NCBI GenBank assembly: GCA_025355385.1
Contig: JANXZS010000164.1
Coordinates: forward strand, 1-63,389
Direction: 5' to 3'
Source of the DNA: Acidobacteriaceae bacterium
Lineage (GTDB): Bacteria; Acidobacteriota; Terriglobia; Terriglobales; Acidobacteriaceae
DNA length: 63,389 bases
Below are positions 35,682-45,495 of the stretch, piece after piece. Position numbers and translations under genes: made by a program. The notes beneath the pieces are model-generated. The model searched no databases, had not been told where the DNA came from, and worked only from the letters and a program-made list of their open reading frames with translations. Numbering within the stretch: the stretch's first letter is position 1; every line of letters starts with the position of its first letter.

Positions 35682-36089
35682 TCAACCTGTAACGGTCTGC
35701 GCTTGTTCCAGCGCCTGTACCAGCCCGCCAAGAGCCGTCGCGATGGTACCCGGTGTGGGCGACAGCATGGCTGCTGAAAGGTCAATGGCTGCCACTGTGA
35801 TGTCCAAAACATTTTTCACCGCGTTAACAGAATGGATGGCGGCAACGGCGTCGTGAGCAGAGGTTTGAATGCTTTCGACGGACGCGTCTATGTCGGACAT
35901 TGCCTGTTTTAACGCCTCGTCAGCGAAACTCTCGGAGGCATTCAACAATCGCCCGAAGTGGAGGTTCAACGAATTCTTCTGGTCAATCGTTAAGCTCTTG
36001 CTGTTGGCAATCCGGTAGGCGAGCGTGGTATCTGCCAGATCCTGGTACAAGGCGGAGAGGTTTCGCCAATCCAACGCGCTGATTTTCAT
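35682..36089 (-). CDS. hypothetical helical protein, partner of the adjacent lipoprotein
   Basis: The 135-residue protein has no signal peptide or known domain. It is predominantly helical by composition, with an acidic N-terminal two-thirds and a more hydrophobic segment near 95-125 ('VLDITVAAIDLSAAMLS', 'GTIATALGGLVQAL') that could insert in or pack against a membrane. It lies 12 bp downstream of the lipoprotein gene, so the two are almost certainly cotranscribed. I do not recognise either. Confidence 0.6.
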   Translation of the reverse strand: MKISALDWRNLSALYQDLADTTLAYRIANSKSLTIDQKNSLNLHFGRLLNASESFADEALKQAMSDIDASVESIQTSAHDAVAAIHSVNAVKNVLDITVAAIDLSAAMLSPTPGTIATALGGLVQALEQAQTVTG

Positions 36090-36101
36090 AGCAGTGCCCC
36101 T

Positions 36102-36959
36102 TCAGAATGCTTTCTTCATTGCCTGAGCTGCTTCAGATATCTGAGAGATCGCGGGAGCCAGATCGGTAACGAGTTGACGAGTATTCCAACGATTGCGTGC
36201 CTCGTAGAGTTTCTGGTGGGCGCTCGCGACGTCGCGAAGAGCTTGCTGATACTTCTGTATGGCCGCAATCTTTTCCGCCTGTGAGTCGAAATCCGCGGTG
36301 CATCTACGCTTCAGCAAATCCACCGCGATAGGCTCAGTTGCTACCCCCGGAACAGCAGGATCGGTCCACTGGGTGCAGAAGGCTAATTCGCGCGACTGCT
36401 CGTCCCGGATCTGCTGCGCATAGCGAAATGCGGCGTATACATCCAGAAATCCGGCGACCTGCTGGACCGCACTATTCGAGTGCTCGATGATGGCGACCAT
36501 CTTCTTCTGCTGGTAACGGCTGGCCATGACGTCGACAAGAGCGCTGGCCAATCCAATGGAGGCATTTGCCTTATTGAGACTATCCGCACTAATTTTTGGG
36601 TCAGCCTGCTGGAGCTCGGCACCAACATTTTGCAGGGAACCGGCTGTCTTGCCCGCATCGAGGTCCGCCAGTCTTCCGAGACTGCTTATGTAGGAAAACA
36701 GGCCATTGTTGACGGCTAGCAACGTTGGTTCGGCGGATTCGAAGAATAGGCAGTTGGAAACGGCCTGTCCCGGCAAAAGATAGGTGGCAGCCCGGTGACA
36801 CGATCTCAATCCGTCAACCGCCAGTGGTCGAAACTGTATGCCGACCTCGCGACTTGCCTGCGCGAATTGCTGGACGGCGATAACGTCGGTACATGAGCCA
36901 GCCAGAAGCGGAATAAACATAGAAAGGCTGAGCCGGGCTAACCGTCGTGCGGTGAGCAA
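36102..36959 (-). CDS. hypothetical lipoprotein
   Basis: The 285-residue protein starts at TTG 36959, supported by a GGAGG five bases upstream. The signal ends in a clear lipobox, 'LLAGSC', with the lipidated Cys near residue 23. The mature part is helical with two Cys-containing stretches and no recognisable domain. Regions around residues 205-260 ('AEKIAAIQKYQQALRDVASAHQKL') look coiled-coil-like. It heads a two-gene unit with the 135-residue protein, and no homologue of a known envelope system is nearby. Confidence 0.65.
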   Translation of the reverse strand: MLTARRLARLSLSMFIPLLAGSCTDVIAVQQFAQASREVGIQFRPLAVDGLRSCHRAATYLLPGQAVSNCLFFESAEPTLLAVNNGLFSYISSLGRLADLDAGKTAGSLQNVGAELQQADPKISADSLNKANASIGLASALVDVMASRYQQKKMVAIIEHSNSAVQQVAGFLDVYAAFRYAQQIRDEQSRELAFCTQWTDPAVPGVATEPIAVDLLKRRCTADFDSQAEKIAAIQKYQQALRDVASAHQKLYEARNRWNTRQLVTDLAPAISQISEAAQAMKKAF

Positions 36960-37179: not shown

Positions 37180-38010
37180 TTAGTGAGCTGCGATGGAGGC
37201 CGTAATTGGACGCCCAGCAGACGTGGATATCGCGGACGGCACGGGTTCAGATCCCGCTTCGCTGGTAACTGCCTTATAGCAGAATTGCAGGCCCAGAATC
37301 AGCAACCACGCGGAGAGAGCGAGCCGTAGTTGTCGATTGGGCAGGCGCGGTGCAAGCAGGGAACCGGCCAAGGCTCCCACCACGCCGCCACAGATCAGCT
37401 TAATCAGCAAGGCGGAGTCATGTCCGCCATTCAGAACATGCATGCTGCTTCCTACCAGCGAGACGCAGAAGCCAAAGGCGAGATCGGTGCCGACAACCTG
37501 AGCCGCGGTAAGGGAGGTGAGTCCCAGAAGCGCTATGGTGCCCAGTGCTCCTGCGCCTGATGAAGAGAGGCCCACCTCGAGCCCGACCGGCAACATTAAC
37601 GCGGCAAGAGAGCGCGGGCGATTTGTCTGGAATGTGTCGCGGTCCACGGGGCGAAAGTGCCGGTAAAGATGCCAGCCGGACGAGACTATGATGATCAATC
37701 CGAGTACGACATAGAGCACACTCTGCTGGCCTTTGAGATCGAAATAGCGGAACAGAATCGAGCCTAGAATTACGCCGGGAAGGCCGCCAAGCAGCATGAA
37801 TCCTACAACGCGGTACTTGACTTGGCGGCGCCAGATCTGAACCGGGACGACGATGAACTTTACTACGGCCGAGTAGGCGAGTGCGGTGCCGACTCCCACG
37901 GCTACCGGAACGTGAAGAAAGAAGATCAGCAGCGGTGCGGTGATGGACCCCGCGCCTACTCCTGTTACAGCGATCGCAAAAGCAATCAGAAACCCGATTG
38001 CATATTCCAT
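37180..38010 (-). CDS. TauE/SafE-family sulfite/sulfur-anion transporter
   Basis: A TauE/SafE (DUF81) permease with about eight TM helices. ATG 38010 is preferred over the longer frame to 38121, because it opens straight into the first helix ('MEYAIGFLIAFAIAVTGVGAG') and leaves 17 bp after cysH. Family members move sulfite, sulfoacetate or related sulfur anions. As the last gene of the cys operon it most likely imports or exports sulfate or sulfite. This is inferred from context; specificity cannot be read from sequence. Confidence 0.82.
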   Translation of the reverse strand: MEYAIGFLIAFAIAVTGVGAGSITAPLLIFFLHVPVAVGVGTALAYSAVVKFIVVPVQIWRRQVKYRVVGFMLLGGLPGVILGSILFRYFDLKGQQSVLYVVLGLIIIVSSGWHLYRHFRPVDRDTFQTNRPRSLAALMLPVGLEVGLSSSGAGALGTIALLGLTSLTAAQVVGTDLAFGFCVSLVGSSMHVLNGGHDSALLIKLICGGVVGALAGSLLAPRLPNRQLRLALSAWLLILGLQFCYKAVTSEAGSEPVPSAISTSAGRPITASIAAH

Positions 38011-38027
38011 GCCTGCAGCCCTTCCCG

Positions 38028-38735
38028 TTACGCGGGTTGAATGTGAATACCGCACTCTACTTTGCGTCCGGACCATCGGCCGGAGCGTGGGTCGTTGGGA
38101 TCGAGAGGAAGGCTGGTACATGGCTCGCAGCCGATGCTGGAGTATCCCCTGTCATAGAGCGGCAGCAGTGGGATTTCGTGTTCAGCGGCGTACTGCCACA
38201 CATCCCGGGTGGACCAGTCGGCTAATGGACTGACTTTGCGCAACTGCTTGCCACTCGGCAAGGTGAACTGGTCAACCGCTTGAAGATTGGTGCGGGACTT
38301 CGACTGTTCCCGCCTGAGCCCGGTGAACCACACATTGAAGCGCTGCAATCCGGCAAACAGCGGTTCCACTTTACGGATGCCGCAGCACTTGTCGGGCGCG
38401 GTCTGATTCAGGATCCCGAACTGCGACTCCTGTTCCTGAACGGTCAAACGCGGTAACAGATTTTCGAGGTTCAGATTCCACTCATCTGCCATGCGGTCGC
38501 GATACTCGTACGTCTCCTTGAAGTGGTAACCCGTGTCGAGGAAGAGTACGGGAACGTGCGGAGCAAGTCGGGTGACGAGATGAAGCACCACAACGTCCTC
38601 GGCCTGAAAACTGCTAGTCACGCATAGGTCGCCTTGCGCATCCACGACCTGCCGCTCCACAAGGAACTTTGCTGCAGCGACTTTCTCTAGGTGGCTTGCA
38701 TTGGTCACGGCTGCGGCTTGAGTTGTTTGCGTCAT
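38028..38735 (-). CDS. cysH: assimilatory adenylylsulfate (APS) reductase, Fe-S type
   Basis: The enzyme reduces APS to sulfite with thioredoxin. The PP-loop-like core has 'SSFQAEDVVVLH' and 'VLFLDTGYHFKETYEYRD'. The paired cysteines C117-C118 ('DKCCGIRKVEP') and C203-x-x-C206 ('IGCEPCT') are the 4Fe-4S ligands that distinguish APS reductases from PAPS reductases. The catalytic cysteine is C228 in the C-terminal 'KVECGIH'. It overlaps cysN by 4 bp. No APS kinase is needed for this route, which fits the degenerate CysN tail. Confidence 0.95.
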   Translation of the reverse strand: MTQTTQAAAVTNASHLEKVAAAKFLVERQVVDAQGDLCVTSSFQAEDVVVLHLVTRLAPHVPVLFLDTGYHFKETYEYRDRMADEWNLNLENLLPRLTVQEQESQFGILNQTAPDKCCGIRKVEPLFAGLQRFNVWFTGLRREQSKSRTNLQAVDQFTLPSGKQLRKVSPLADWSTRDVWQYAAEHEIPLLPLYDRGYSSIGCEPCTSLPLDPNDPRSGRWSGRKVECGIHIQPA

Positions 38736-40450
38736 TTGGTCTCGTCTCCTATGCGCGCTGCGATGATTTGTTTTTTGATGAGTGCTTCAACCACAGCATG
38801 AGCTGAAGCAGTGTGGTCCGCGGCAATGCCTTGAGCGAGCGCCTCCGAAATCAATTCGGATTGACCTCCGTGAAGCGACGCGATGGATAATTCGGAGGAC
38901 TCATTCGATTCGACTATGGCTACAACACCAGCATGCAGGAGCGCGCGCCACGTATCCGGATTTTGAACGCGCGTACGGACTACAGCCACGCGCAAGGCAA
39001 GTAACCTCTCTTCAAGATCCGCAGCCAGCTCAGGACGATTCCCCACCATAAGGAGCGCGGATGCCTGAAGCAGATCCTTTTCGGCGTAAGCCCCGTCGCC
39101 GTCTGCAATCACCTGACGAATCATGCCGGCTCCCACGGTAGCGTTGCTTGTGGGATCGATCAGGATGAAGCTTCCGGTGCTCCGATTCTGGTTGTAGCTA
39201 TCGACAATCAGAGCTCGGTTTGCCTCCACAACAACGACGCCGATCGCGTTCATCTGGAGCGTATCGGCGGGTTGTTCGGCGAGTGTCTCAATGTCGATCC
39301 TGTGCCGAATCGAACTGACGCGCGCCTTCACGGTCTGCGTCGTGTGCTTCAACAGGTATGTTTTGCCGATATGCATGGCCTGGGGGTGCAACCACACCAG
39401 CGATGCTTCAAAATTCTTGGCAGCCTGCGGCGGCGCCTCCTCGCTGGCAATGACGTCGCCGCGACTGATGTCGAGTTCGTCTTCGAGTGTGACCACGATA
39501 GAGAGCGGGGCCTGCGCCTGAGCCAAATCGCCGTCAAAGGTGCTGATGGATTGCACCCGGCTTTTGCGGCCCGAGGGCAGCGCAACCACCGTGTCTCCGC
39601 GATAGATGGTGCCTGCGGCTATCTGCCCTGCGAAACCGCGGAAGTGCTGATGCGGGCGAATAACGCGTTGCACGGGCAATCGGAAGCTGAGGCGCGAATG
39701 GCGCTCAGCGACGGGAACCGTCTCGAGGTATTCCAGCAGGCTGGGTCCGGAGTACCAAGGCGTATTTTCGCCGCGCGTCACCACGTTATCGCCTTCGAGC
39801 GCGCTGACGGGAATGCACTCAATCTCGATGTTTCCCATGCGGGCAACGAGAGCCTTGAGGTCTCGCTGGTGCTGCTCGAAGACGTCCTGCGAGTAGCCGA
39901 CGAGATCCATCTTATTGACCGCGGCCACCAGCTTGGGAATGCCGAGCAGCGACGCAATATACGCATGGCGACGCGACTGGGTGAGGATTCCCTTGCGGGC
40001 ATCAAGAAGAATGATGGCCAGGTCCGCGGTGGACGCTCCGGTAGCCATGTTGCGCGTGTACTGCTCATGCCCCGGAGTATCGGCGATGATGAATTTACGC
40101 CTGCTGGTGGAGAAGTATCGATAGGCGACGTCGATGGTTATGCCCTGTTCCCGCTCGGCGCGTAATCCATCCGTCAATTGTGCAAAGTCAATGGTAGGCA
40201 GAGCGTGTGTGCCTTGAGTGCGGGTTACGGCACGCACATGATCCTCATATACATTCTGCGAGTCGTAGAGAAGGCGGCCGATCAACGTCGACTTGCCATC
40301 ATCTACGCTCCCGGCCGTGCTGAAGCGCAGCAGGTCCTTGGACTGTTCCTGCGCGAGAAATTCCTCTATCGGAATAGGCACGGGGGCATCGCCTGGTCGC
40401 GAAGATACCTCATCGATACGTGCATTGGGGGCTTCGGTAAGGTGCGGCAT
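38732..40450 (-). CDS. cysN: sulfate adenylyltransferase subunit 1 (GTPase) with degenerate C-terminal extension
   Basis: CysN is the regulatory GTPase of ATP sulfurylase. The EF-Tu-like G domain shows 'GSVDDGKSTLIGRLLYDSQ' (P-loop), 'DTPGHEQYTRNMATGAS' and 'NKMDLVGYSQ', and domains 2-3 follow. The protein is ~572 residues, about 100 longer than standalone CysN. The extra tail (~residue 460 on, 'LLMVGNRPELAADLEERLLALRVAVV') aligns in position with the APS kinase domain of CysNC fusions but lacks its GxxGxGKST P-loop. It is therefore probably a decayed CysC remnant. The gene abuts cysD (TAGATG). Confidence 0.92.
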   Translation of the reverse strand: MPHLTEAPNARIDEVSSRPGDAPVPIPIEEFLAQEQSKDLLRFSTAGSVDDGKSTLIGRLLYDSQNVYEDHVRAVTRTQGTHALPTIDFAQLTDGLRAEREQGITIDVAYRYFSTSRRKFIIADTPGHEQYTRNMATGASTADLAIILLDARKGILTQSRRHAYIASLLGIPKLVAAVNKMDLVGYSQDVFEQHQRDLKALVARMGNIEIECIPVSALEGDNVVTRGENTPWYSGPSLLEYLETVPVAERHSRLSFRLPVQRVIRPHQHFRGFAGQIAAGTIYRGDTVVALPSGRKSRVQSISTFDGDLAQAQAPLSIVVTLEDELDISRGDVIASEEAPPQAAKNFEASLVWLHPQAMHIGKTYLLKHTTQTVKARVSSIRHRIDIETLAEQPADTLQMNAIGVVVVEANRALIVDSYNQNRSTGSFILIDPTSNATVGAGMIRQVIADGDGAYAEKDLLQASALLMVGNRPELAADLEERLLALRVAVVRTRVQNPDTWRALLHAGVVAIVESNESSELSIASLHGGQSELISEALAQGIAADHTASAHAVVEALIKKQIIAARIGDETK

Positions 40451-41380
40451 CTAGAAGTAGCCCTCCCGTTTCTTGATTTCCATTGAGCCGTCCTGGTCGT
40501 GGTCGATGACGCGATTGGCGCGCTCAGAAGAGCGGAAGGAAACCAATTCAGCGATGATCTTCGGCAGTGTATCCGCATCCGAGCGGATGGCACCCGTGCA
40601 TGGACTGCAGCCGAGCGAACGGAGACGGCAGCGAATCCACTGTTCTTCACCCGGGAGACCTTTGACGAAGGGCTGCTCCACGGGAATCAGGCTGTCGCCG
40701 CGAACTAGCATGCGCCGCTCCTTGGCAAAATAGAGCGGCACGATAGGGATATGCTCCAGATGGATGTAGTGCCAGATGTCGAGTTCGGTCCAGTTAGAAA
40801 GGGGAAAGACGCGGATGCTTTCGCCCGGGCCAATGCGACCGTTGTAAAGATTCCACAATTCGGGACGCTGGTTTTTAGGGTCCCACTGTCCCGCCGAATC
40901 CCGGAAAGAGAAGATTCTTTCTTTGGCGCGGGATTTCTCTTCATCGCGGCGCGCGCCACCGAATGCTGCGTCGAAGCCGTGGTTGCGGAGCGCGTCCAGT
41001 AGCGCTGTAGTCTTCAACAGCCCGCAGCACCGTTGTGTTCCCAATCGAGCCGGATTGGTTCCGTCGCGCAGGGCTTCTTCGTTCCTGTGCACGATAAGAT
41101 TGACGCCTAGCTCGCGAGTGTAGGAGTCGCGAAACTCCAGCATCTCGCGGAATTTGTAACCCGTGTCCACATGCAGCAGAGGGAAGGGAATGGGTCCTGG
41201 ATGGAACGCTTTTTGCGCCAGGCGCAACATCACGGATGAGTCTTTGCCGATGGAATACAGCATGACGGGGTTCTGAAACTCAGCCGCTACTTCGCGAAAG
41301 ATGTGGATGCTCTCCGCCTCCAGCAGTTGCAGGTGACTGAGTTTCGCCGAGATGCTTGGAGTGTCTGCTGTCATTGCCAT
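40451..41380 (-). CDS. cysD: sulfate adenylyltransferase subunit 2
   Basis: CysD is the catalytic PP-loop subunit that adenylates sulfate. It contains '[21 protein letters not shown]' split around residue ~40, '[18 protein letters not shown]', and the C-terminal '[15 protein letters not shown]'. ATG 41380 (or 41374) is chosen, since the longer frame to 41437 would extend into the upstream terminator. It is the first gene of cysD-cysN-cysH-tauE. An attenuator with a six-Cys leader ORF precedes it at 41440-41612. Confidence 0.94.
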
Positions 41381-41439: not shown

Positions 41440-41479
41440 AAAAAAGCCCACGCGCCGAAGGGAGTCAGGCGGTGAGCTT
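41440..41479 (-). terminator. intrinsic terminator/attenuator in the cysD leader
   Basis: On the minus strand AAGCTCACCGCC (41479-41468) pairs with GGCGCGTGGGCTT (41456-41444) around an 11-nt loop, with one bulge and one G-T pair. Six T residues (41445-41440) follow. It lies 35 nt after the stop of the Cys-rich leader ORF and 60 nt before cysD, the geometry of a transcription attenuator. The 5' arm (CGCC, 41471-41468) can instead pair with GGCG (41536-41533) inside the leader ORF. Confidence 0.75.
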
Positions 41480-41513
41480 TTTATATGAGCTGATTCTAGA
41501 TTAGTAAGACTAT

Positions 41514-41612
41514 CTATCCATGCTCGCATCCACGCCGACAGATCCTCATGCTGTTGCAGGTACAACAGCTGCGGTTCATTCGACACAGGCGGAGGGTGAG
41601 CGTGGAGGCCAT
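41514..41612 (-). CDS. Cys-rich leader peptide ORF of the cysDNH operon
   Basis: An ATG at 41612 opens 32 codons with cysteines at positions 10, 16, 17, 19, 25 and 29 ('SCCTCNSMRIC' in the middle) and a TAG at 41514. The A of the ATG is nine bases past a -10-like box (41627-41622), so the message would be nearly leaderless. Codons 3-5 (TCCACGC, 41606-41600) are perfectly complementary to GCGTGGA (41535-41529), which also overlaps the pairing partner of the terminator. A further perfect stem, GCTGTTG/CAACAGC (41569-41563/41556-41550), covers the C16-C17 codons. These features fit cysteine-responsive attenuation of sulfate assimilation. Confidence 0.7.
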   Translation of the reverse strand: MASTLTLRLCRMNRSCCTCNSMRICRRGCEHG

Positions 41613-41621
41613 GCTTTTAGT

Positions 41622-41650
41622 AGATTGCTGGATATTGGCAGATATGTCAA
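41622..41650 (-). promoter_or_regulatory. promoter of the cysDNH leader
   Basis: A perfect -35 TTGACA (41650-41645) is separated by 17 bp from CAATCT (41627-41622). The -10 match is weak. However, the distance from the -10 to the leader ATG (nine bases between) is identical to that on the opposite strand, which supports both assignments. It diverges from the receptor promoter, whose -35 lies 35 bp away. Confidence 0.5.
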
Positions 41651-41684
41651 CGGAGGGCTGTCTTCAAATAGCGACTAAATCTGC

Positions 41685-41713
41685 TTGACGGCTGGCCAGA
41701 TCCTTCATACACT
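41685..41713 (+). promoter_or_regulatory. promoter of the TonB-receptor leader
   Basis: TTGACG (41685-41690), a 17-bp spacer and TACACT (41708-41713) form a good sigma70-type promoter. Transcription should start about 41720, two or three bases before the ATG of the first Cys-rich leader ORF at 41723. Confidence 0.6.
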
Positions 41714-41722
41714 ACGAAAACG

Positions 41723-41806
41723 ATGAAGCCCTCCGCCACGATCACGTGTTGTATATGTCTGACTACATGTAGTGTCATGTGGCGGCGTGGTCCTACAATC
41801 GTGTAA
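41723..41806 (+). CDS. Cys-rich leader peptide ORF upstream of the TonB-dependent receptor
   Basis: Twenty-seven codons with cysteines at 9, 10, 12 and 16 ('TCCICLTTC') end at TAA 41804-41806, 26 nt before a hairpin with a T-run. Three mutually exclusive pairings can be drawn. Segment 1 CCGCCAC (41733-41739) pairs perfectly with segment 2 GTGGCGG (41779-41785). Segment 2 can instead pair with segment 3 CCGCCGC (41834-41840; 7 bp with one G-T). Segment 3 pairs with segment 4 as the terminator. A ribosome stalled on the Cys codons would cover segment 1, free segment 2 and open the terminator. This mirrors the cysD side. Confidence 0.7.
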   Translation: MKPSATITCCICLTTCSVMWRRGPTIV

Positions 41807-41818
41807 TTCCATCCTAGA

Positions 41819-41834
41819 GTGAATTGGAATTCAC
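41819..41834. repeat. inverted repeat GTGAATT-GG-AATTCAC
   Basis: The 7-bp arms are perfect around a 2-bp centre, directly abutting the terminator hairpin in the receptor leader. The loop is too small for an RNA hairpin, so if functional it is more likely a DNA operator. It may be chance. Confidence 0.4.
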
Positions 41835-41866
41835 CGCCGCTAGAACTTAAATGTTCGGCGGTTTTT
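41833..41866 (+). terminator. intrinsic terminator/attenuator in the TonB-receptor leader
   Basis: ACCGCCG (41833-41839) and CGGCGGT (41856-41862) form a perfect 7-bp stem with a 16-nt loop, followed by a run of five T. It lies between the Cys-rich leader ORF and the receptor gene, so most transcripts would end here unless an antiterminator forms. Confidence 0.72.
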
Positions 41867-41913
41867 CATTTTCAAGGGTGGGGAATTGTGGCAAGACTAC
41901 TTCTCAGTTTCGA

Positions 41914-41982
41914 ATGGCACCACCCGGCATGCGCAAGAGCTTCTCTCCGAAGCGCTCAATCTGTTGTTGCTCCTGTTGTTGA
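41914..41982 (+). CDS. possible second poly-Cys leader ORF before the TonB-dependent receptor
   Basis: A 22-codon frame from ATG 41914 ends 'SICCCSCC' and stop, with five Cys in the last six codons; GTG 41878 is an alternative start. No Shine-Dalgarno precedes it. The run CTCCTG (41970-41975) within the Cys codons is the exact complement of CAGGAG (42069-42074), the receptor's Shine-Dalgarno. A ribosome paused there could expose that site. The low-complexity TGT/TTG stretch also gives a Leu-rich reading in another frame, so the assignment is tentative. Confidence 0.35.
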   Translation: MAPPGMRKSFSPKRSICCCSCC

Positions 41983-42081
41983 TGGCCTGTCGACGCGGCA
42001 CTCAATCTAAATCTCTGTCATCGTCCACGGCCCCCCACCAGAAATCTACATGACGTCGCATGTTTCATCAGGAGTTTGACT

Positions 42082-45000
42082 ATGTTTGCGCTTCCGCGAT
42101 TTCCGCTCTGTCCCCGAAGTTCTATCTTCGCGTTTCTATTTGCAGTGTTGACCCTGGCCTGGGCAACTTCAGTGGAAGCACAAGTCGTGGGGGGCTCGAT
42201 CTCCGGCACGGTGCGCGATCCATCTGGCGCACAGCTACCCGGAGCCAGCGTCACCTTGCGCAACATTGACACTGGCGCGGAGCGCGTATTGCTCACTGAC
42301 GCTGTCGGAAGGTACATCGCGCCTTCCATTCCAGTGGGCAACTATCACGTCTTAGCCACAAAGACCGGCTTCAACTCGCAGTTGAAGACGGGGATCACGC
42401 TGGTAGTAGGACAAAGCACATCCGTCGACTTGGAGCTTCCGCTTGGGACAGTCCAGCAGGAGATTGTGGTTGCCGAGCGTCCGCCCACTGTAAGCCTTAC
42501 TACGCAGCAAACCTCTGGGCTTGTGGACGAACGTCAAGTAAAGGAATTGCCATTGAACGGTCGCAGTTACGATGAACTAATAACTCTCAATCCGGGAGTA
42601 GTAAACTACTCCACCCAGCGGACAGGCGGAGTTGGCACATCAAACTCTGCAGTAGGCAATATGTTTGCCGTCTCCGGTCATCGTCCGCAGGAAAATATTT
42701 TTCTTTTAAATGGCATTGAATACACGGGTGCATCGCTGATCAACGTTACGCCCGGCGGTACCAGCGGCGAGCTACTTGGAGTGGACGGTATCCGCGAATT
42801 CAACGTTGTGACCGATAGCTACGGGGCGGAGTACGGAAAGCGACCGGGTGCGCAGGTAAGCATCGTTACAGCTCCGGGTACGAATAAGGTTCACGGGTCC
42901 GCCTTTGAGTTTCTTCGGAACAGCGCGGTTGACGCCCGTAACTACTTCGATCAAGGTGCGATTCCAATTTTCCAGCGCAATCAATTCGGAGGAGCAGTGG
43001 GTGGACCTTTACGCCGCAATAAGCTTTTCCTCTTTGGCAACTACGAAGGTTTTCGCCAGAATCTCGGTCTCAGCAGTGTCACGCTGGTGCCCGACAACGG
43101 CGCGCGCGCAGCAGCCGTCGCCAGTGTCCGGCCACTGCTGGCCCTGTGGCCAGTGCAGAATGGTCCTGAGCTTGGCGATGGCATCGCAACCGCTTATAGC
43201 CACCCCCGGCAAGATATTCGGGAAGACTTCGGGACGACCCGACTGGACCAGAATATCTCGAACGCAGATACCGTTTCGGCTGCATATACGATCGACGACA
43301 GCTTCGCGAATACTCCCACAGTGAACCCCTTCAGCTCCGTGATCGAAGGACTTCGCGAACAGGTCGTCAGTATTCAGGAGCAGCATGTTTTCTCAGCAAA
43401 TGTTCTGAATACCGCGCGTGTGGGATTTTCACGCGCAGCCTATGACTTCACTGGCGCAACTTCAGCGGATGTTCCCGGCTGGGTGGTTGGTCGTCCCATC
43501 GGCGCTGTGGTCGTCGGTGGAGGCACGGCATTAAACGGAGCGTCACAAATAAGCCTGGCGGGAACCAACGCCGGTAGTAACCTGACTACCGCGCGAAACC
43601 TATTCACTGTGGGTGATCACGTGTTCGTGTCCCATCGTATCAACCAACTGGAAGCAGGGATGTGGTTGCAAAGGATTCAGGCGAACGACAATCTGGCGCA
43701 GTATCAGTACGGGCAGGCCTCCTTCAGCAACTTGTCAAACTTTCTTCAGGGGAAAGTATCGACCTTTACAGTTGTCCCTTCTCCGACGGAGTTAGGATGG
43801 CGGTCTCTTGAAGGAGCCGGCTTTATTCAGGACACGATAAAGTTCCGCCCGAATCTTGAGGTCAAGGTCGGCTTCCGCTTTGAATCCACTAATGGGTGGA
43901 ATGAGGTGCGATCGCGGGCTTCAAACTACCAGTTCGATTTGAAGGGAGTTATCCAGACTACCCCCCGCATTGGAGCTTCTGCATTAACTGTGAACCGTGC
44001 TAAGTTTCTTCCTCAGCCGCGCGTTGGCCTGGCTTGGGATCCATTCCATCAGGGGAAAACAATCGTGCATGCCAGCTTTGGGATGTACAACGCCCTGCTA
44101 GACAACCTGGACTACAGGCTCGATCAGACGGCTCCGTTCAACACCACGCAGTCCTTGAAGAATGTGTCGGTGTCGAGTCTCAACATCATCCCCGGGCAGT
44201 CACTTGGAGGTAATAGCCGGGTGTCACCGAGCGGAGTGCAGCCTGATTCGCATACTCCAACGTTTCTGTCATACACACTGAAAATTGAACAGGAGATAGC
44301 GCCGAGGACTTCTTTGAGCGTTGGCTATGTCGGCTCTCATGGCTATCACGAGATGTTATCGGAGGATCTGAACGAACCCATACCTGCCATCCTTCCATCG
44401 GGAGTGGTGTACTATGCTCCGGGCTCGCCGCTTGTCAATCCGGATCTCGCCAACACGACGACGTGGGTGTCGGAGGGTGTTAGTTCTTACAACGGGTTAC
44501 AAGCGGACATTAGTCGTCGCTTTTATGGTGGCTTTCAATTGCGAGGTGTTTATACATTTTCAAAGAGTCTCGATGATGGAACCGGATGGAACAGCAGTGT
44601 TGCGGCGAATGCTCCAGGCTTCGTGATGTACCCCGCTAAGCCAAAATTGGATTGGGGACCATCGACTACGGATGTCAGGCAACTCGCCAGCGTGAACGGG
44701 GCCTACGAGCTTCCATTTGGCCGAGGTAAGCCCTACCTGTCGAAGGTAGGCAGCCTGCCCCAGAAATTTGTAGCCAAATGGACGTTGAGCGGAATTCTCA
44801 GCCTGCAGACCGGATTCCCGTTCACCCCGCAACTCGGCTTCAATCCTACAAACAATGGCGATAGCAGGAATCCGATTCGCCCCTCGGTGAACCCTGCTTT
44901 CAGGGGTAAGATCATTCTCGGCAAGGTCAATGGGTACTTCGATCCAAACGCCTTCATGTTGCCTGCGCCGGGCACCTACGGGAACCTGGCGCGCAATTCA

Positions 45001-45243
45001 CTTACCGGGCCGGGATCTACCAACCTCGATGCCGCTTTACGCAAGGGCACTGCCATCACTGAACGGGTGGACCTCGAAATTCGCGCGGAGGTCTTCAACG
45101 TCTTCAATCACACAAATCTGAATTCGCCGAATGCAGTCGTCTTCACTTCTGCAGCAGGCACGCCTTCGCCCACCGCGGGAGTGATTACTTCGAGTTCAAC
45201 AACCTCCCGACAGATTCAGTTGGGGGCGAAGATTCTCTTTTAG
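42082..45243 (+). CDS. TonB-dependent receptor with N-terminal carboxypeptidase-regulatory-like domain
   Basis: The 1053-residue outer-membrane protein is of the Oar-like group common in Acidobacteriota. It has a signal peptide (~1-31), an Ig-like carboxypeptidase-regulatory domain (~34-115, 'GSISGTVRDPSGAQLPGASV'), a plug (~120-240, 'LPLNGRSYDELITLNPGV', 'FLLNGIEYTG'), and a large beta-barrel ending in the aromatic C-terminus 'QLGAKILF'. ATG 42082 has AGGAG seven bases upstream. The frame alone does not tell the substrate. Its leader contains Cys-codon attenuator features and it diverges from the cys operon, so uptake of a sulfur-containing compound is a fair inference. Confidence 0.9.
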   Translation: MFALPRFPLCPRSSIFAFLFAVLTLAWATSVEAQVVGGSISGTVRDPSGAQLPGASVTLRNIDTGAERVLLTDAVGRYIAPSIPVGNYHVLATKTGFNSQLKTGITLVVGQSTSVDLELPLGTVQQEIVVAERPPTVSLTTQQTSGLVDERQVKELPLNGRSYDELITLNPGVVNYSTQRTGGVGTSNSAVGNMFAVSGHRPQENIFLLNGIEYTGASLINVTPGGTSGELLGVDGIREFNVVTDSYGAEYGKRPGAQVSIVTAPGTNKVHGSAFEFLRNSAVDARNYFDQGAIPIFQRNQFGGAVGGPLRRNKLFLFGNYEGFRQNLGLSSVTLVPDNGARAAAVASVRPLLALWPVQNGPELGDGIATAYSHPRQDIREDFGTTRLDQNISNADTVSAAYTIDDSFANTPTVNPFSSVIEGLREQVVSIQEQHVFSANVLNTARVGFSRAAYDFTGATSADVPGWVVGRPIGAVVVGGGTALNGASQISLAGTNAGSNLTTARNLFTVGDHVFVSHRINQLEAGMWLQRIQANDNLAQYQYGQASFSNLSNFLQGKVSTFTVVPSPTELGWRSLEGAGFIQDTIKFRPNLEVKVGFRFESTNGWNEVRSRASNYQFDLKGVIQTTPRIGASALTVNRAKFLPQPRVGLAWDPFHQGKTIVHASFGMYNALLDNLDYRLDQTAPFNTTQSLKNVSVSSLNIIPGQSLGGNSRVSPSGVQPDSHTPTFLSYTLKIEQEIAPRTSLSVGYVGSHGYHEMLSEDLNEPIPAILPSGVVYYAPGSPLVNPDLANTTTWVSEGVSSYNGLQADISRRFYGGFQLRGVYTFSKSLDDGTGWNSSVAANAPGFVMYPAKPKLDWGPSTTDVRQLASVNGAYELPFGRGKPYLSKVGSLPQKFVAKWTLSGILSLQTGFPFTPQLGFNPTNNGDSRNPIRPSVNPAFRGKIILGKVNGYFDPNAFMLPAPGTYGNLARNSLTGPGSTNLDAALRKGTAITERVDLEIRAEVFNVFNHTNLNSPNAVVFTSAAGTPSPTAGVITSSSTTSRQIQLGAKILF

Positions 45244-45409: not shown

Positions 45410-45495
45410 TGGTGCGAAAGGGGGGACTCGAACCCCCACGCTTTTAGGGCGCCAGATCCTAAGTCTGGTGCGTCTGCCAATTCCGCCACTCTCGC
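45410..45495 (-). tRNA. tRNA-Leu (anticodon UAG)
   Basis: On the minus strand the sequence folds as a class II tRNA. The acceptor arms GCGAGAG and CTTTCGC pair with one G-T, with discriminator A and encoded CCA. The anticodon arm CCAGA-CTTAGGA-TCTGG has anticodon TAG, and there is a long variable arm and a T arm GGGGG-TTCGAGT-CCCCC. It decodes CUA leucine. It stands at the edge of a degenerate island that starts with a recombinase remnant. Confidence 0.96.

Follow-up and report, generated by a model that had tools for sequence, protein, structure and literature searches.

The intergenic region between the sulfate assimilation genes cysDNH and a divergently transcribed outer-membrane receptor gene of an Acidobacteriaceae bacterium very probably holds two divergent cysteine-codon leader attenuators, which would sense the supply of Cys-tRNA; this reading is drawn from sequence comparison. 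The window, by which we mean the whole stretch of 63,389 nucleotides that was analysed, carries on its minus strand cysD (sulfate adenylyltransferase small subunit, 40454-41374; NCBIfam TIGR02039, 453.9 bits against a cut-off of 396.6), cysN (the large subunit, 38732-40450; TIGR02034, 582.4 against 336.1) and cysH (APS/PAPS reductase, 38028-38735; PRK02090, 250.4 against 154). In protein sequence, CysD shares 90% identity with its counterpart in Acidobacterium sp. S8 and 88% with the one in Granulicella sp. dw_53, and leaders are present at the cysD loci of both. After cysH, on the same strand, comes a TauE/SafE-type exporter gene (37180-38121, with the Pfam TauE domain on 37183-38016), the listed reading frame of which overlaps the end of cysH. 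The plus strand encodes an outer-membrane protein of the TonB-dependent-receptor type (TBDR; 42082-45243, 1053 residues) with an OMP_b-brl_4 barrel and a CarboxypepD_reg domain in Pfam and no match in the NCBIfam search; its Shine-Dalgarno sequence AGGAG lies at 42070-42074. A preliminary description of this DNA had pictured cysDNH and the receptor gene as a divergent pair with Cys-rich leaders on both strands, and this arrangement is indeed present in the window and recurs in relatives.

The transcript of cysD has a putative promoter on the minus strand at 41622-41650, formed by TTGACA (41650-41645), a 17-nt spacer and CAATCT (41627-41622). The -10 hexamer is weak, agreeing with TATAAT at two of six positions only, and it recurs in a genome of the same genus; TTGACA is found 38 nt before the leader start also at a same-genus locus (L002) and at two others (L004 and L049; such numbers are our handles for loci). 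Nine nucleotides past the -10, an ATG opens the Cys leader ORF MASTLTLRLCRMNRSCCTCNSMRICRRGCEHG (41514-41612, 32 codons, 6 Cys), which is recognized in comparison with relatives and is probably leaderless. None of 200 dinucleotide shuffles of the surrounding 310 nt equals its Cys count (p 0.005). An intrinsic terminator, GCUCACCGCC...GGCGCGUGGGC and then a U run (41441-41482, minus strand; -21.0 kcal/mol in our own scan), begins 31 nt past the leader stop and was aligned with relatives, and the fold of the whole minus leader has a z of -4.7. The promoter, the distance to the ATG and the Cys count are thus as first described for this strand. The pairings ascribed to it fared unevenly: the 1:2 pairing UCCACGC/GCGUGGA is there, but the 2:3 pairing comes to just 4 bp (GGCG/CGCC), is not above chance (p 0.80) and is left unsupported.

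On the plus strand, the promoter of the TBDR transcript (TTGACG, 17 nt, TACACT; 41685-41713) has a like spacing in orthologs, and the ATG again stands 9 nt past the -10. It opens the first Cys leader ORF of the receptor, MKPSATITCCICLTTCSVMWRRGPTIV (41723-41806), which is also seen in orthologs and contains the expected 4 Cys in 27 codons. Taken alone, this ORF is borderline against shuffles (p 0.065), and it gains weight because it is conserved in relatives. Its intrinsic terminator (41836-41866, -13.1 kcal/mol) follows 29 nt past the leader stop, so that the hairpin with T-run, which had been placed 26-35 nt past each stop, is found on both strands. The four attenuator segments (1, 41733-41739; 2, 41779-41785; 3, 41833-41840; 4, 41856-41862; all within 41733-41862) can form every pairing claimed for them, namely 1:2 (ccgccac/gtggcgg), 2:3 (gtggcgg/ccgccgc) and 3:4 (accgccg/cggcggt); against shuffles, p is 0.04 for 2:3 and 0.16 for 1:2. 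A joint fold of five TBDR orthologs recovered the terminator and a stem like 1:2; its covariation term was small, at -0.4. A generic scan of the region listed three promoters and one terminator, against 0.9 and 1.0 in shuffles. The TBDR promoter is on its list; the minus-strand promoter and the terminator hairpins of the cysD leader and of the first TBDR leader are not, and the sole terminator-like site that it gave is 42115-42130. Rfam covariance models yielded no family for the cysD-TBDR intergenic region, either at the gathering score or at E<=1.

The preliminary description was right about a Cys leader before the receptor gene, but it claimed a single one and overlooked a second. This second, internal Cys leader ORF, MRKSFSPKRSICCCSCC and then a stop (41929-41982, plus strand, in a frame open from an ATG at 41851), lies between the plus-strand terminator and TBDR, where it ends in ICCCSCC before the stop at 41982. 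It stands out from shuffles on its own (p 0.005), it has counterparts in orthologs, and its C-terminus is identical in a genome of the same genus (L171).

If these leaders work as attenuators, ribosomes would translate each of them from the 5' end of the mRNA. With ample Cys-tRNA, the ribosome would run through, the 3:4 terminator would form and transcription would stop. With scarce Cys-tRNA, it would stall on the Cys codons and cover region 1, leaving region 2 to pair with region 3 and allowing readthrough into cysDNH or TBDR. Cysteine shortage would in this way raise sulfate assimilation and the outer-membrane receptor together. The second Cys ORF, promoterless and just before TBDR, may give the same mRNA a second cysteine checkpoint.

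The sequences upstream of cysD in relatives offer the broadest support for the leaders. For each locus, the highest number of Cys in any short ORF of the upstream 310 nt was compared with 200 dinucleotide shuffles. A Cys-rich ORF reached p<=0.05 in 46 of 89 loci, and the mean was 4.6 Cys, compared with 2.2 for shuffled sequences and 1.6 for the opposite strand; many of the 89 share a genus and are not independent, and two further loci were left out as too short. By a hand tally, 41 of the 64 loci of the window's own family pass (about 3 are expected) and 23 miss the threshold, while other families give 5 of 25; in family f6, one of 14 passed, and weakly (p 0.045). Four loci (L003, L005, L011 and L104) have no leader, and a same-strand ORF lies 35-87 nt upstream of them. 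Among named genomes, a set which overlaps the main one, 34 of 80 cysD matches were tested and 11 reach p<=0.05. Some of the cysD leaders are very dense in Cys, such as MKSTSHLRCCCCHACCACRGFVRACMCCCC (L064) and MIFRSTPAGCRMHCNLCCCMACPCGCECCCQRS (L057). Over 51 leaders, Cys makes up 24.3% of the codons in the leader frame and 6.3% and 3.1% in the other two, a comparison with some circularity, Cys having served to choose the frame. The Cys codons are kept upstream of both cysD and the orthologous TBDR, and the remaining peptide varies. That relatives might have lost the Cys codons or the stems had been named as grounds for giving up the idea; this check did not overturn it, for the Cys codons persist and the spacings recur.

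The same comparison bears on where transcription starts. Upstream of the 51 de-duplicated cysD leaders (45 positions scanned), 27 of 46 TATAAT-like hexamers stop 5-12 nt short of the start codon, and 11 of 17 TTGACA-like hexamers (at least five of six positions matching) lie 35-38 nt before it. The corresponding distance is 6-11 nt for 10 of the 12 -10-like hexamers counted before 16 distal TBDR leaders. Because this spacing recurs, the leaders look leaderless, and the mRNAs probably start on the leader ATG itself or no more than a few nucleotides from it. Leaderless genes have been reported in silico in Acidobacteria, at an average of 13.3% in three genomes, in the available part of that study (PMC3160421).

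How the leaders exert their effect may differ between lineages. With a terminator defined as a hairpin of at most -10 kcal/mol that starts no more than 70 nt past the leader stop, 19 of 49 cysD leaders have one, against 4.7% of shuffled sequences (49 of the 51 leaders were used; two that end less than 60 nt from cysD were omitted). The other 30 have no intrinsic terminator by this criterion, so termination cannot be the universal output; in lineages with such leaders, the output would have to be Rho-dependent or translational. A family of cysD leaders with a QLRCCC core (L062, L074 and L076-L084) is without an intrinsic terminator by the criterion used. Where terminators are present, among 34 leaders of cysD, TBDR and reductase genes taken together, the median gap from stop to hairpin is 31 nt. 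For the antiterminating pairing, region 2 was taken as the leader past its first Cys codon and region 3 as the 5' arm of the terminator. The 2:3 complementarity of matched pairs is 16.66 against 14.64 when permuted (p 0.0001); the control with reversed arms is also raised (15.47 against 14.46), and the permutation signal is therefore partly compositional. One locus (L209) was dropped after the permutation comparison for a misassigned gene start. Against shuffles made per locus, p<=0.05 is reached for 2:3 at 8 of 33 loci (Wilcoxon p 0.017) and for 1:2 at 4 of 33 (Wilcoxon 0.058). The longest 2:3 cases are GCGTGGGTGTGA/TCGCACCCACGC (L056) and GTGGGTGC/GCACCCAC (L057).

One could ask whether the leaders, though genuine cysteine sensors, work chiefly by way of Rho or at translation initiation, with the window's hairpins being secondary. 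The many terminator-less cysD leaders speak for this, as does the second TBDR leader, which stops close to TBDR and lacks a promoter signal. There is precedent as well: in the accessible passages of the work on actinobacterial cys leaders, no terminators were found and Rho was proposed (PMC1262725), and mycobacterial cysteine genes are described under translation attenuation in the part of another source at hand (PMC13236596). Against it, both leaders of the window have U-run hairpins about 30 nt past the stop, a position that recurs in cysD, reductase and TBDR leaders. A translational route by which the tails of the second leaders would sequester the Shine-Dalgarno sequence, as suggested by CTCCTG/CAGGAG in the window, found no support either, with 2 of 17 orthologs at p<=0.05 and a combined Fisher p of 0.24. 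A C-rich, G-poor sequence past the leader was also considered as a Rho signature; C and G are 0.32 and 0.19 in leaders without terminators and 0.29 and 0.20 in those with them, and being so alike they are uninformative on Rho. On balance, we regard a mainly Rho-dependent or translational output as rather unlikely for the window.

Attenuation by codon reading is a well-known theme. In attenuators of the trp and his type, the leader contains codons for the amino acid of the pathway, and the RNA can form 1:2, 2:3 and 3:4 pairings. The window resembles them in having short Cys-rich leader ORFs, each with an intrinsic terminator before the first gene, and in the pairings written for the plus strand, and differs from them in the leaderless start, the divergent pair, the unsupported 2:3 pairing of the minus strand and the outer-membrane receptor as a target, TBDR not being a biosynthesis operon. 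A closer likeness is to mycobacteria, in which polycysteine leaderless short ORFs, studied by Canestrari et al. in 2020, reportedly form a cysteine-responsive attenuator. These also are leaderless Cys-rich ORFs before cysteine genes, and their typical start codon, on or beside the point where transcription begins, is matched here in silico by the -10-like hexamer 5-12 nt upstream. The present case differs by its phylum, by intrinsic terminators at part of the loci, by the receptor target and by two leaders in series. The mycobacterial work is cited in PMC9094748 and PMC13236596. Cys leader peptides were also predicted for actinobacterial cys/cbs operons, with runs of Cys codons near the stop as here; in contrast to those leaders, for which the passages at hand mention no terminators, the window's leaders have intrinsic ones (PMC1262725). 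In Rhodobacterales, which are alphaproteobacteria, uORFC-8-2 was predicted before cysS, and the available text gives it two tandem Cys codons, a conserved RNA motif and then a U run that would fit a terminator, whereas the genes downstream of the window's leaders are cysD and TBDR (PMC8632094). Among the matches listed in open-licence full texts, the closed-access literature being outside the search, there was no description of Cys-codon leaders in Acidobacteria or before TonB-dependent receptors. The best reading, going by the sequences compared, is that the type of attenuator is already known from Actinobacteria and from cysS of Rhodobacterales, and that Acidobacteriota are a further phylum with it, where it comes with intrinsic terminators and, before a receptor gene, in tandem.

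Cys-rich uORFs before receptor genes can have another meaning. In the excerpts available, CruR/DUF2946 is described as a copper-sensing, Rho-dependent protein of 145 residues that bears CXXC and RAPP motifs and whose export is predicted; its Cys-containing uORF lies before a TonB-dependent transporter, which it governs (PMC9426467). By analogy, the thiols of the window's leader peptides would bind a metal and alter translation arrest. The Cys-rich uORF before TBDR and the CruR precedent are in favour of this, and CCIC and CCTC in the window's leaders formally fit CXXC. As far as the excerpts go, however, members of the CruR family have CXXC and, at a conserved distance, a C-terminal RAPP, and most of them bear an export signal (PMC9426467), and the window's leaders are 27 and 32 residues long and have no RAPP. 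The positions of Cys differ between orthologs, and Cys-rich leaders also precede cysD. Metal sensing is in our judgement very improbable, and we return to the sensing of Cys-tRNA.

The tandem arrangement before the receptor was followed in the 21 best TBDR orthologs, the window included, at about 50% identity and up. Under a strict rule, two non-overlapping Cys ORFs are present in 10 of the 21, a single one in 8 and no such ORF in 3; two are found in 0 of 7 TBDR paralogs and in 0 of 1050 shuffles, 1.8% of which have one. A weaker test on split windows, at p<=0.05, gave 10 of 21 for the proximal window, 6 of 21 for the distal one and 3 of 21 for both. Two loci, one too short (L198) and one lacking the N-terminus (L199), were dropped from these comparisons of TBDR leaders. 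The proximal leader lies about 50-160 nt before the receptor gene and often has Cys codons at or next to its stop; besides the window's own, such endings are MSFFRTFLTCCRRGCC and MTASLKTKLSSPRAVAAARSSAFAPHTSPCCRCCCC, each directly before the stop. The distal leader tends to have a promoter at leaderless spacing. Twelve proximal leaders showed no -35 and two stray -10s in a promoter scan that split first from second leaders at 200 nt, by which some second leaders landed in the first group. Since they have no promoter signal of their own, the proximal leaders are probably on the same mRNA. At one locus (L081), about 2.9 kb separate TBDR from cysD, and both leaders remain with TBDR. CCCxCC before a stop was tried as a genome-wide marker of the second leader and rejected. 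A search of 61 genomes gave 27 matches to it and 2 to its reversal; before this TBDR, it was seen to end a short ORF only in the window and in the same-genus genome. In the bacterium's own genome, where TBDR-like proteins are greatly expanded (97 matched stretches were counted), none of the 24 TBDR paralogs tested has a significant Cys leader (mean 1.9 Cys). That the Cys-rich ORFs are artefacts of chance or of the composition of a GC-rich intergenic region is hardly credible: the first plus leader is borderline by itself and a search of many relatives will yield some false matches, but the excess upstream of cysD in the window's family, the strict tandem ORFs of the orthologs, their lack in both sets of paralogs and the recurring promoter and terminator spacings all count against it.

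The leaders extend beyond cysD and the receptor. Genes with PF01077 (NIR_SIR), of the sulfite/nitrite-reductase type, share the device, convincingly by eye in 9 of 13 printed loci; examples of their leaders are MLAACQTRCQCCMSCCTGVLSGNGRRL (L212) and MNNFSNLRRMCMCPCCCCACVCSGVGRSLT (L211). The PF01077 gene of the window's own genome (L207, contig C56) has the leader MGSLRVIPAMFCSMCMHMLSRCILR with 3 Cys after TTGACT, 17 nt, TACACT and 6 nt, followed by a hairpin GCCCGCGC...GCGCGGGC with a T-rich tail. We considered the name cysI for these genes and did not keep it: four of the proteins, the own one included, scored best with ferredoxin-nitrite reductase and NirA models and fell below every NCBIfam cut-off, so an identity as sulfite reductase is not established. 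At cysK (15 loci) and cysE (2 loci) no convincing leader was seen, with several gene starts misassigned (L337-L339, for example). Outside the class, two loci from other families (L363 and L371) have a TTGACA promoter, a Cys leader and a terminator before PF01077 genes; they come from the best 30 PF01077 loci in a sample of 199 genomes of the phylum, 29 of them outside the class and several with misassigned gene starts. These two suggest that the device is old or widespread in the phylum.

A larger picture can be drawn from this, which we offer tentatively and put at slightly less than an even chance. In it, an old cysteine regulon of the phylum would use leaderless Cys-codon leaders to gate cysDNH and a sulfite/nitrite-reductase-type gene, and the receptor, presumably for an organosulfur nutrient, would have two successive gates on one mRNA, the first a leaderless leader linked to a terminator and the second an internal poly-Cys leader with a different mechanism. 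A role of the receptor in sulfur uptake is conjecture on our part. If true, however, it would link an outer-membrane receptor to sulfur starvation and give a clue to what such receptors import; the reading of Cys codons by ribosomes would decide which nutrient importer enters the outer membrane. The tandem leader also raises the question of what a second codon-reading checkpoint adds on the same mRNA. In one genome (G149), the PF01077 gene, TBDR and cysD are found within 6 kb. As for the surroundings of the gene pair in the window, two adjacent ORFs (135 and 285 residues, 35682-36959, minus strand) without a Pfam match lie downstream of the cys cluster, and a tRNA-Leu gene (45410-45495, minus strand) stands directly past TBDR on the opposite strand.
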